From Billgrantia pellis (lineage in GTDB: Bacteria > Pseudomonadota > Gammaproteobacteria > Pseudomonadales > Halomonadaceae): 64,000 nucleotides of DNA. Under the pieces are notes generated by a model. The model worked only from the letters and a program-made list of their open reading frames with translations. It ran no database searches and was not told the origin of the DNA. Below are positions 20,405 through 24,627 of this stretch, piece by piece. The stretch is taken from NCBI RefSeq assembly GCF_008297955.1, contig NZ_VTPY01000004.1, positions 1 through 64,000 on the forward strand. Reading direction: 5' to 3'. Within the stretch, counting starts at the first letter, position 1. Each line of letters begins with the position of its first letter. Both the position numbers and the translations under genes were made by a program.

Positions 20405-21460
20405 TCAGGAAGCGGCCGCGCCACGGCGGGCCATGTCGGCGGCGAGCGCGACGGCGATGCGCAGGCTGCCGATATCGGCGACCCCATGGCCGGCCAGGTC
20501 CAGTGCCGTACCGTGATCCACCGAGGTACGTACGAACGGCAACCCCAAGGTCACGTTGGCGGCCCGGCCGAAGCCGGCGTACTTCAGCACAGCCAGCCCT
20601 TGATCATGATACATCGCCAGCACGGCATCGATAGCGGCCAGGTGACGAGGCGTGAACAGGGTATCGGCCGGCAGCGGCCCGTCAAGCGCCAGCCCCTCGC
20701 GACGCAGCTGTGCCAGGCAGGGCGAAATCACCTCGAGTTCCTCGCGGCCGAGGTGACCGCCTTCGCCGGCATGAGGATTGAGTCCACACACGGCGATGCG
20801 CGGCGTCGCGATGCCGAACCAGCGCGCGAGGCCGGCGTGAAGGATAAGCAGAATGCGCTCAAGGCGCGTGGCGGTGATCGCGTCGGCCACCTCCCGCAAT
20901 GGCAGATGCGTGGTGGCCAGCGCCACGCGCAACGCCGAGCTGCCCTGCCAATCTGGCACGCGAGCGTGCAGGGCACTGTCCGTTGCCAGCATCATGACCA
21001 CTTCCTCGATGCCGCAGGCATCGCGCAGGTATTCGGTATGGCCCCGAAAGCCGGCGTGGCCGGCATCGAGAATCACGCCCTTGTGCAGCGGCGCGGTGAC
21101 CATGCCGTCGGCCTGCCCGCGATGGCAGGCGTCGATCGCCATGTCGAGCGTTTCGAGCACGTAGCCGGCATTGGCCACATCGAGCTTGCCGGGGTGGCTG
21201 GGTCGGCGCAGCGCCACCGGCCACACCGGCAACACGCCAGGCCTCGTCGGCGGTACCGCTTCGCCCGGAGCCAGCGCGCGCAGGGCGACCTCGAGACCGA
21301 GCGTGGCCGCTCGCTCGGCCAGCAGCCGCGGATCGCCTATCGCCACGATCCGCCCCGGCAGCTCCTCCTCCGTCATCAACTGCAACACCAGTTCGGGCCC
21401 GATGCCGGCGGGTTCGCCGGTGGTGAGAGCCAGTACGGGCGCATCAGGCGGCATCGTCAT
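20405..21460 (-). CDS. pdxA: 4-hydroxythreonine-4-phosphate dehydrogenase PdxA
   Basis: A 351-aa zinc enzyme of pyridoxal 5'-phosphate synthesis. Motifs: LALTTGEPAGIGPEL at the start, GHTEYL, NPHAGEGG and MYHDQGLAVLK, FVRTSVDHGTALDLAG near the end. The histidines in these blocks are the metal ligands of the family. One-base overlap with surA (TGATG), so the two are coupled. Confidence 0.97.
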   Translation of the reverse strand: MTMPPDAPVLALTTGEPAGIGPELVLQLMTEEELPGRIVAIGDPRLLAERAATLGLEVALRALAPGEAVPPTRPGVLPVWPVALRRPSHPGKLDVANAGYVLETLDMAIDACHRGQADGMVTAPLHKGVILDAGHAGFRGHTEYLRDACGIEEVVMMLATDSALHARVPDWQGSSALRVALATTHLPLREVADAITATRLERILLILHAGLARWFGIATPRIAVCGLNPHAGEGGHLGREELEVISPCLAQLRREGLALDGPLPADTLFTPRHLAAIDAVLAMYHDQGLAVLKYAGFGRAANVTLGLPFVRTSVDHGTALDLAGHGVADIGSLRIAVALAADMARRGAAAS

Positions 21461-22125
21461 CAGCGACCTTCGGCGAGCCGATTGTCGACGAACGCCTCGG
21501 CACGGATTTCCTGGAGCCAGGCCTCCAGCGCCTCGTTGGCCTTGCGCTGGAAGACCATCTGGCGCGCTTGCTCGCGGCTCACGTTGCCGCCCTGCTGCTC
21601 CATAAAGCGCTCGACCTCGCGCTCGCTGACGTTGACGCGGCCTCCGATGCGACGCTGATGCAGTTCGCGCAGCAGCATCTCGCGACGGATCTCCTCACGC
21701 ACGGTCGACATGGTCAGTCCGTCGGCCTCCAGCGCATCGGCGAACTGATCGAGGGTCATGCCGTTGCTCTCGGCAATTTCACGGATCTGGCGGTTGAGTG
21801 CGGTATCGTCGACGGAAAGCCCGGCATCCGCCGCCATTTGCAGTTGGATTTCCTCGACGATGATCTGCTCCAGAACCTGCTCCCGCAGCATCGCCTCGGG
21901 AGGCAACTGTTGGCCACGCGCGGCCAGTTGGCTGCGCGCCTGCGCCATGCGTTCCTCGAGTTGGCTCTGCATGATGGCCTGCTGGTTGACCACGGCCACG
22001 ATGCGGTCCAGGGATTGCCGCTGTACCGGCTGATAGTCCTGGGCCTGGGCCGCGAACGGCAAGACGCCAAGGCACAGGGCCAACCCCAGGGTGGCCCCCA
22101 GGGACGCGAGTCGCGGAATCCGCAT
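21460..22125 (-). CDS. surA: Periplasmic chaperone SurA, lacking both PPIase domains
   Basis: A 221-aa protein where E. coli SurA has about 428. ATG 22125 follows GAGAGGAAAG; an upstream in-frame ATG at 22143 has no ribosome site. A signal peptide (about residues 1-28, cleavage after AQA) precedes the SurA N-terminal domain (LDRIVAVVNQQAIMQSQLEERM, LEQIIVEEIQLQMAADAGLSVDD, TMSTVREEIRREMLLREL). The chain then passes directly into the C-terminal helix (EQARQMVFQRKANEALEAWLQEIRAEAFVDNRL), with neither parvulin domain. The N plus C core carries outer-membrane-protein chaperone activity in E. coli, so this is probably functional. Next to lptD, a known SurA client. Confidence 0.88.
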   Translation of the reverse strand: MRIPRLASLGATLGLALCLGVLPFAAQAQDYQPVQRQSLDRIVAVVNQQAIMQSQLEERMAQARSQLAARGQQLPPEAMLREQVLEQIIVEEIQLQMAADAGLSVDDTALNRQIREIAESNGMTLDQFADALEADGLTMSTVREEIRREMLLRELHQRRIGGRVNVSEREVERFMEQQGGNVSREQARQMVFQRKANEALEAWLQEIRAEAFVDNRLAEGR

Positions 22126-22200
22126 GTCGTTCTTTCCTCTCATGATGTGACTGCCAAAGGGCCAACCCGGGTCGGCTCAGAAATCCTGCCAAGGCTCTGC

Positions 22201-24627
22201 TCAGAACTCTGTGGCGCGATAGCCGGGTATGGCCGTTTCGAAATATCCGGCGGCATTGCCGCCGACGCCGCCCAGTCCTTTGAACACGAAGCGCAGGAAG
22301 ATACCGCGCTCGGTGGTGTCATCCTCGATGGTATTCGCAGTGTCGTTGTCCTCGATCCACTCACGCCATACCAGCTGCAGACCATAGCAGCAGTCGTTCC
22401 ACTGTACACCGGCCATCTGATCCAGGCTGCGACGGTTGGTATGGTCGTGGAGATAGCGTCCGATGACATCGATCCTCGGATTGACCTTGTAGGCGAAGGA
22501 GAGCTCGTACTCCTCGCGATCGTACCCCAGGCGATCTTTGTCTTCCCCGGACGGATCGAATCCTTCGAGTTGCCAGCGATAGGCAAGGTTCAATACATGG
22601 CCGCGGGGATCGCGATAGGCAACGCCTACGCTGCTGCGCTCCGTGCGACTCCGATGGTCGTCGTAGAGCCACTCGTAGCGCGTGCTCCAACGGTCGTTGA
22701 TTCGCCAGTCCAGGCGCGTCACCCACGGAGATCGGTCGCGTATCGCCTGATAGAGGCGCTCACCGTCGTCGGCTCGCGGTGAAGGCAGCGTGTCGGGATC
22801 GCCGGCCATGTCGATGCTGCGGTCGTCGAAGTAGTACGCTTGTCCCACGCCCAGCATGAAGCGGTCACGACCGCTCCCGTCTTCCAGGAAACGACTGCTC
22901 ACCGCGTAGGAGATACGGTTGAGGTCGCCGATGCGATCAGAGCCCGTGAAACGGTATGGCGACCAGAGCTGATTCCAGGAAAAGGCGCGTTCGTCGCTAT
23001 CGAAATCGGGAAACTCGCTCTGGTCGCGGGCCGGCACGTAGGCATAGTTGAGCCGCGGCTCCAGGGTCTGACGGTAGTCGCGCCCTCCGAGCTCGAGCTC
23101 GCGCTCGAATATCAGGCCACCGTCGATCGAGGCGACCGGCACTGCACGCTGCAGCGAGGTACTGCGTTCGGTTTCCCGTTCGCCGTAGTCGAGGTCGTAG
23201 GCGGTGTAGAGCCACTCCACCCTCGGCTCCAGGTGCCCCCAGGATTCATCGAAGCGCCAGCCTGTCGCCGGCGACAGGTGCAGTCTCGTTCCGGTGGCGG
23301 ATTCCCGCAGCGGCACGCGGGTGCGATCGACGTCGCGCCAGAAGTAGGTGACGTCGGAGCGCCACTGCTGGTAGAGCCCACCGGGTTGGGACCAGCGCGC
23401 GGCGGCGCTAAGGCTGGGCAGTCGATAGAACGGTTTGTCACGGTCACGCAGCGGGTGTTCGAGCCGCTGGTAGCCCTGGGCGCGCGCCTGCAGGTTCCAT
23501 GTATCACCGCGGTAGTTGAGCAGGGCCAGCCGTGGCATGTTGCTGGGCCCCTCGCCGAAGGCGCTGCCGAAGTCGTCGAAGTAGCGACCGTCGCTGGCCG
23601 CGCCGTAGCGCAGGTTGTAGCGGGTGCGGGCGTCGAACGAACCGCTATGCATGTAGTCGACGTACCAGCGATCCTCGCCTTCGAAGCGCCGGGTTTCATC
23701 ATCGCTGGCGCCGCCGTCGTCGTTCGACAGGTAGGCCCCCTCGATCTGACCGGCATCGGTGGGGAACAGGTAACGGTATTCGCCCCCCAGCAGCAAACCA
23801 TGCTCGGTAATCCAACGCGGCGTGATGGTGGCGTCGTGATTGGGCGCGATGTTCCAGTAGAACGGCTGGGCGTAATCGAGACTGTCGCTGGAGAGTCCCA
23901 GCGCGGGCCACAGGAAGCCCGTATGACGTCGGTCGTCGATGGGAAAGCGCACCCAGGGCCAGTAGAATACCGGGACCCGTCCCACTTCCAGGCGCGCGTG
24001 ACGCGCGGTACCGAAGCCGCTCTCGCGGTCGAGAATCAGGTCGCGCGTCGCCAGTCGCCACAGGGAATCGCCGGGATCGCAGGTAGTGAAGTTCGACGAG
24101 ATCAGCCGATAGCGCCCATCTTCCAGCCGCGACAGTTGCACCGCATCGCCGCGCAGGTGCTGGTCATGGATCACGTAGTGGGCCGAATCGACACGGGCCG
24201 CGTCGCTGTTCAACGAAACCTCGGCGGCCTCCCCACGCACCAGCAGATTGAGATCGCGCAGCGCCAGCGGCCCCTCGGCCTCGGCATGCTCACGCCCGGA
24301 AGGCATGCGCACCTTGGGGGATTCGAGCTGGCTGTCGCCGCGACGCAGGATCACCTCGCCATTGAGAATGGTCTCGCCATCCTCACCGTAATAGGCGCTG
24401 TCAGCTTCGGCGCTGACCCTCCCTGGGTCTTCGGTCGCGGGCAAACGATAGGCGGGCATCACGTAGACACCGCGGCACAGCGCCTCGTCGGGTCGATCGC
24501 TTCCCCAAGGGTGCCAGTCCAGTTGCCAGGCCGGCAATGGCTCAAGTGCCATCGCCAGCGGCGCACCGATCGTCAGGCCGGAAGAGATCAAGCCGGCCAA
24601 CGCCGTTCCCGCATGTCGCTTGCCCAT
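22201..24627 (-). CDS. lptD: LPS-assembly protein LptD
   Basis: An 808-aa outer-membrane translocon that inserts lipopolysaccharide with LptE. A signal peptide occupies residues 1-27 (cleavage after AMA). An OstA-like periplasmic domain (about 65-165: VSAEADSAYYGEDGETILNGEVILRRGDSQLES) precedes the LptD beta-barrel. The cysteines needed for the interdomain disulfides are present: C51, C183 and the late pair in QWNDCCYGLQLVW. It is first of the lptD-surA-pdxA-rsmA-apaG-apaH run and is divergent from amgK. Confidence 0.97.
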   Translation of the reverse strand: MGKRHAGTALAGLISSGLTIGAPLAMALEPLPAWQLDWHPWGSDRPDEALCRGVYVMPAYRLPATEDPGRVSAEADSAYYGEDGETILNGEVILRRGDSQLESPKVRMPSGREHAEAEGPLALRDLNLLVRGEAAEVSLNSDAARVDSAHYVIHDQHLRGDAVQLSRLEDGRYRLISSNFTTCDPGDSLWRLATRDLILDRESGFGTARHARLEVGRVPVFYWPWVRFPIDDRRHTGFLWPALGLSSDSLDYAQPFYWNIAPNHDATITPRWITEHGLLLGGEYRYLFPTDAGQIEGAYLSNDDGGASDDETRRFEGEDRWYVDYMHSGSFDARTRYNLRYGAASDGRYFDDFGSAFGEGPSNMPRLALLNYRGDTWNLQARAQGYQRLEHPLRDRDKPFYRLPSLSAAARWSQPGGLYQQWRSDVTYFWRDVDRTRVPLRESATGTRLHLSPATGWRFDESWGHLEPRVEWLYTAYDLDYGERETERSTSLQRAVPVASIDGGLIFERELELGGRDYRQTLEPRLNYAYVPARDQSEFPDFDSDERAFSWNQLWSPYRFTGSDRIGDLNRISYAVSSRFLEDGSGRDRFMLGVGQAYYFDDRSIDMAGDPDTLPSPRADDGERLYQAIRDRSPWVTRLDWRINDRWSTRYEWLYDDHRSRTERSSVGVAYRDPRGHVLNLAYRWQLEGFDPSGEDKDRLGYDREEYELSFAYKVNPRIDVIGRYLHDHTNRRSLDQMAGVQWNDCCYGLQLVWREWIEDNDTANTIEDDTTERGIFLRFVFKGLGGVGGNAAGYFETAIPGYRATEF

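Follow-up and report, generated by a model that had tools for sequence, protein, structure and literature searches.

The window, by which we mean the whole stretch of 64,000 nucleotides of Billgrantia pellis DNA that was analysed, carries on its minus strand a surA gene encoding the core of this chaperone without either of the two parvulin-type peptidyl-prolyl isomerase (PPIase) domains, P1 and P2 (a "core-only" SurA). The gene order lptD-surA-pdxA-rsmA, assigned with Pfam, and the 1-bp overlap of surA with pdxA are the same as in E. coli K-12 MG1655, an arrangement that supports, rather than defines, membership of the SurA family. The surA open reading frame (ORF) occupies positions 21460-22143; translation from the ATG at 22125 yields 221 amino acids, the form numbered here, and an alternative ATG at 22143 would yield 227. 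The features of the locus are as follows.

22201..24627, minus strand: lptD, the upstream neighbour of surA (Pfam LptD, E 2.7e-84).
21460..22125, minus strand: surA, core-only, a 221-residue chaperone, presumably periplasmic (ORF, Pfam SurA_N, parvulin HMM, dN/dS).
22042..22125, minus strand: N-terminal signal-like segment, residues 1-28 (translation judged by eye).
22000..22017, minus strand: QSLDRI, residues 37-42, putative equivalent of the segment docking on BamA POTRA-1 (pairwise alignment).
21661..22011, minus strand: SurA_N domain, the N-lobe of the core (PF09312 match).
21571..21591, minus strand: junction at which P1 and P2 are missing, about residues 179-185 (alignment with other SurAs, linker lengths).
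21466..21576, minus strand: C-terminal helix of the core, residues 184-220 (AlphaFold2 helix, structural alignment with 1m5y).
20405..21460, minus strand: pdxA, overlapping surA by 1 bp as in E. coli (ORF call, Pfam, comparison with E. coli K-12).

Membership of the SurA family is established by the SurA_N domain (PF09312), which matches residues 39-155 at E 2.3e-38 with 131.4 bits against a cut-off of 30.8. For the rotamase family, Pfam gave no match in this protein up to E 0.1, and no parvulin domain was detected in the window gene by a parvulin HMM seeded with the P1 and P2 of E. coli and then rebuilt with the matches found among the fetched SurAs. A whole-genome search with PF00639 returned three matches, none at the surA locus, which places the protein outside the parvulin PPIases. 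In a phmmer comparison with SurA sequences of the PDB, residues 37-182 matched the N-lobe and residues 183-213 the C-terminal helix, the latter piece alone being weak at 10.2 bits; the match to 2pv3 had an E value of 9.4e-27. Pfam and phmmer thus agree with the initial annotation, which had described a single 221-residue frame with a signal (signal-like to us by eye), a SurA N-domain and a C-terminal helix and with both PPIase domains missing. By the same Pfam and parvulin HMM results, the protein lacks the P1 and P2 that mark the three-domain SurA of E. coli type, and it has the architecture for which the term core-only SurA is used in the literature, a core without any PPIase domain (PMC11401910). 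At 221 residues, it also differs from PpiD, which has about 600 residues with the parvulin domain set between SurA_N-like and C-terminal parts. The further suggestion of the initial annotation, a natural minimal SurA beside lptD, is borne out by the core-only architecture together with the gene order.

When aligned with the SurAs of E. coli, Pseudomonas, Litchfieldella, Vreelandella and H. heilongjiangensis, the window protein matches E. coli SurA as far as residue 167 or so and picks up again near residue 392, which corresponds to a deletion of about 168-391 in E. coli numbering. These cut points are nearly those of the engineered E. coli SurA-core, reportedly the work of Behrens et al. (2001), with the difference that the latter was made in the laboratory, whereas the Halomonas protein evolved domain-free. 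The engineered construct is a deletion of residues 172-389 (PMC11401910). An AlphaFold2 model built from 46 aligned sequences reached a mean pLDDT of 71.1 and a pTM of 0.61, with residues 52-214 mostly above pLDDT 70 and residues 1-51 and 215-221 below 50; the low-scoring first 51 residues include the putative BAM-docking segment. The best 13 PDB matches found with Foldseek were all SurA chains, with E values of 0.001 or below in 12 cases. The top VIA-align match was 1m5y, with a Z of 14.6, an rmsd of 2.8 Angstrom over 165 structurally aligned residues, an identity of 35% and a chain range of 31-427, so that the N-lobe and the C-terminal helix were both matched; a Z of 14.6 can occur for helical models without kinship, and the sequence match is independent evidence. 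The helix that completes the discontinuous core is therefore present, as seen in the 1m5y alignment and in a conserved C-terminal block, and the model, of moderate confidence, shows the SurA core fold.

Near the N-terminus, QSLDRI aligns with residues 23-28 (QVVDKV) of E. coli SurA, and its L39 and D40 are invariant in the 46 aligned sequences. The E. coli segment docks on BamA POTRA-1 (PMC11366764, PMC9797188), and D26, the counterpart of window D40, has been cross-linked to BamA (PMC9797188). Another core site, Y128, the aromatic residue at the base of the E. coli client site, was considered as a marker and set aside: it is V in the window SurA, but V or A also occurs in the domain-bearing relatives shown, so the position does not discriminate. 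The three-domain SurA of E. coli (1M5Y) has in common with the window protein its place in the operon, SurA_N, the C-terminal helix and the position of the BAM-docking strand, and differs in keeping P1 and P2, neither of which the window protein has. Campylobacter jejuni PEB4 and Cj1289 are, we presume, SurA-like proteins with one PPIase domain. Helicobacter pylori HP_0175 likewise has one, fewer than E. coli SurA (PMC9820271), and the window SurA has zero.

The surA locus was examined in all 89 same-genus genomes with a SurA match, out of 90 searched; the one miss, G082, is 77% complete. Classing genomes by the span of the match proved unsafe, since the match of G244 spans residues 8-217 despite a P2 domain; span-only classing was therefore dropped and the 50 remaining same-genus genomes were fetched. 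By the parvulin HMM, 87 of the 89 SurAs (37 + 50) have no parvulin domain and the remaining two, in G028 and G037 (Halomonas heilongjiangensis), have one. Close relatives with a full-length SurA at this locus, which the initial annotation had named as evidence against its reading, did not appear, the two-domain form being found in 0 of 89. A collection of named records gave 78 loci, of which 48 are core-only, including those of Billgrantia saliphila, Halomonas elongata, H. eurihalina and H. campaniensis; the SurA of B. saliphila, the nearest named relative, is 97% identical to the window protein. Against B. saliphila, dN/dS was 0.048 for surA, 0.075 for lptD, 0.100 for rsmA and 0.193 for pdxA. 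In comparisons with three relatives further away, the surA values were 0.13-0.24, near those of the neighbour genes, and in the comparison with B. endophytica surA was the highest of the four genes at 0.152. The window surA is under purifying selection. An assembly error or a decaying pseudogene, for which only the unusual length speaks, can be dismissed for practical purposes, given this selection, the recurrence of the same architecture in those 87 congeners from separate assemblies (14 of the 90 genomes searched are single-contig) and the lack of an internal stop in any of the 89 SurA matches. Core-only SurA is confirmed as a real, conserved trait of the Halomonas group.

Two side observations concern the H. 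heilongjiangensis gene. Its signal-like hydrophobic part is expanded to a long Leu-Ala run (L034, minus strand, near 2640-2720; L183), apparently from a short tandem DNA repeat, and the sister genome G028 (L033) is without this expansion.

Across the family, a SurA match was present in 274 of 275 genomes. In a sample of the order, 52 of 56 genomes had a match, and 50 of the 52, all outside the family, had frames of at least 415 residues; the 10 out-of-family genomes taken as loci (L094-L103) all encode a two-domain SurA. The fetched family SurAs have two, one or zero parvulin domains, and four states were seen: two-domain, P1-only, P2-only and core-only. Outside the window genus, SurAs that were not fetched were classed by match span, frame length and some same-frame rotamase hits among the matches listed. 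By HMM score, the single domain resembles P2 in G028, G037 and genus g23, whose named members are Vreelandella, and P1 in Aidingimonas, Onishia, Salinicola and others. The gap between the P1 and P2 scores of one-domain SurAs is about 54-88 bits (34 bits in the frame-broken L078), and this clean split indicates that single domains were lost by two opposite routes.

Some loci of the family stand apart from this scheme. In genus g23, the surA frames of L078 (G222), L092 (G250) and L059 (G266) are broken or partial, probably through assembly quality, the genomes being 86%, 89% and 74% complete, respectively, and these three loci were assigned no state. In L064 (G190, genus g21), a TGA that could be a sequence error or a mutation falls within the matched C-terminal stretch of a P1-only SurA. 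Genus g14 includes two-domain (L054, L055) and P1-only (L058) species, a second natural loss series.

A tree of five neighbour genes was built from 43 chosen rows, and no branch in it separates the outgroup rows from the rest. It unites Halomonas and Vreelandella, none of which has P1, in a single group (support 100/99). In a tree of P2 domains, all of the 18 domains tested from P2-only SurAs cluster together (99/95). Inside this cluster, the H. heilongjiangensis pair (100/96) is placed next to the 16 domains of the Vreelandella group (85/89, not starred), as expected from vertical descent. The two groupings together imply that P1 was most simply lost once, before the genera parted. The Halomonas/Vreelandella ancestor most likely had lost P1 and kept P2, and a first loss of P1 is well supported. 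The idea that H. heilongjiangensis reacquired its P2 from a member of Vreelandella was considered and is unsupported, its pair lying beside those 16 domains; its SurA core is 70-73% identical to the window core.

At least three separate losses of P2 took place, affecting Halomonas, G273 and the lineage of HL-48 and G261. G273 is core-only and its nearest row, G230, keeps P2; the core-only HL-48/G261 lineage adjoins V. arcis, which also keeps P2; and a tree with the three core-only Vreelandella rows as one clade was rejected (p-AU 5e-11). Measured between fixed landmarks, the linker has 27-29 residues in those Halomonas SurAs in which the landmarks could be located. It has 33 residues in G273 and 38 in both HL-48 and G261, which have the same junction and may share one loss, the support in the tree being 77/25. 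Among the Halomonas rows, the free tree places the two P2-bearing genomes inside the core-only species (97/94, 93/93), which, if that tree is right, implies up to three Halomonas losses or a regain; a single loss there is compatible with the data (p-AU 0.236). A tree of LptD and PdxA, made by a quick method from 87 chosen rows and carrying a long-branch warning, needs 10 state changes overall. At the DNA level, no deletion breakpoint could be read in the pairs compared, which were too diverged.

The repeated loss of domains in the family by different routes would also be expected if SurA were reduced and nearly dispensable, with outer membrane protein (OMP) traffic running mainly through Skp, DegP or BAM itself and domain loss reflecting relaxed constraint. 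There is a Skp-like gene in the genome, and Acinetobacter baumannii is unusually tolerant to the loss of SurA, Skp and DegP, to judge from the title of a study (PMC9578438). We consider this explanation unlikely: SurA is retained almost throughout the family and, against the nearest relative, though not against distant ones, its core is under stronger selection than three neighbour genes.

The genome (4.35 Mb, 10 contigs, 99.99% complete) was also searched for other folding factors. A second, full-length SurA elsewhere is excluded, PF09312 finding only the window surA and a PpiD-like protein. Parvulin domains occur only in this PpiD-like protein (606 residues, on another contig, with a membrane-anchored look by eye), and in two smaller proteins without a visible signal by eye, one of 92 residues and one of at most 331; the larger of these two lies directly downstream of an apparent cytochrome-type membrane protein. 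The PpiD-like and cytochrome-type identities are assignments made by eye. The genome also encodes an Skp-like and an FkpA-like protein, both with what looks by eye like a signal at the start.

A separate parvulin might pair with the core and thus supply the PPIase domains in trans, and the three other parvulin-domain proteins offer candidates for such a role. The mean number of parvulin domains among the matches listed is 2.66 in core-only congeners (87 genomes) and, in 70 Vreelandella-group genomes taken as P2-only, 3.46 with SurA's own domain and 2.46 besides it; this comparison omits G082 and 12 of 82 g23 genomes (3 core-only, the others broken, partial or <90% complete). There is no clear sign of compensating extra parvulins in core-only genomes. 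Moreover, the core-only congeners G007, G033 and G055 each have a single parvulin domain among the matches listed, the two smaller parvulins of the window genome lack a visible signal, and the PpiD-like one is apparently anchored in the membrane, so that supply in trans seems very improbable. In G007 and G033, both 99% complete, the lone domain was matched at E 1e-8 or better.

The reading that we prefer, at a probability of about 0.8, is that the window gene encodes a functional core-only SurA, an open core chaperone that docks on BAM and that arose by two in-frame steps. The first step would have been the loss of P1 in the common ancestor of Halomonas and Vreelandella, and the second the loss of P2, which would have occurred independently in Halomonas and in two or more lineages of Vreelandella. 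Once exported to the periplasm, the protein would capture unfolded OMPs in a crevice that the N-lobe and the C-terminal helix form together. Its N-terminal strand would then pair with BamA POTRA-1, so that the OMPs pass to BAM. In E. coli, P1 lies packed against the core, which it has been proposed to keep autoinhibited until a client binds, and the core alone expands the bound client most (PMC11401910). Without P1, the closed, autoinhibited core-P1 state would be impossible, and a permanently open holdase is to be expected. Prolyl isomerisation would be left to other envelope PPIases, such as the FkpA-like and PpiD-like proteins. The window protein is a putative chaperone of OMPs. E. coli LptD is a SurA-dependent OMP, and its level is lower in a surA mutant (PMC11366764). 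The initial annotation had taken the E. coli core to be sufficient for chaperone activity, which holds insofar as most of the activity resides there, but the PPIase domains are needed for full function: full novobiocin resistance depends on them (PMC2556385), as does protection against OmpT aggregation (review, PMC9820271).

Core-only SurAs are already in print: a survey counted 73 among 14,244 homologues, largely from bacteria of extreme environments and with 49 of the 73 in Halomonas (Nat Commun 2024;15:8071, PMC11401910). These Halomonas proteins have the same PPIase-free core and belong to the same genus group as the window SurA. As far as the available part of that paper goes, its account consists of counts, and the order of loss, the intermediates and the separate losses come from the present analysis; no report of the loss order, the P2-only intermediates or the Vreelandella losses was found among open-licence papers. 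What is new here is the history of P1 and P2 loss, not core-only SurA itself.

Why SurA keeps two PPIase domains, given that in E. coli most of the activity lies in the core, is an unsettled question. Of these domains, P2 is active in E. coli and P1 is not (PMC9797188). A single family with all four domain states makes it possible to test the question on closely related natural proteins rather than on truncated versions of E. coli SurA. In the survey cited above, as far as its available part shows, the rarity of core-only SurAs was taken to indicate that retaining at least one PPIase domain is important to survival or virulence (PMC11401910), an argument that is qualified by a genus in which 87 of 89 genomes encode a SurA without any. 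More tentatively, SurA may have been stripped in parallel within the Halomonadaceae, always first of P1 and then of P2, with as many as five losses of P2 if the free tree is right, and salt-loving bacteria may in this way have adapted to a permanently open chaperone; we consider this possible rather than probable. If it is true, such parallel stripping in a fixed order would mean that PPIase loss is adaptive in salt-loving bacteria and not the outcome of drift.
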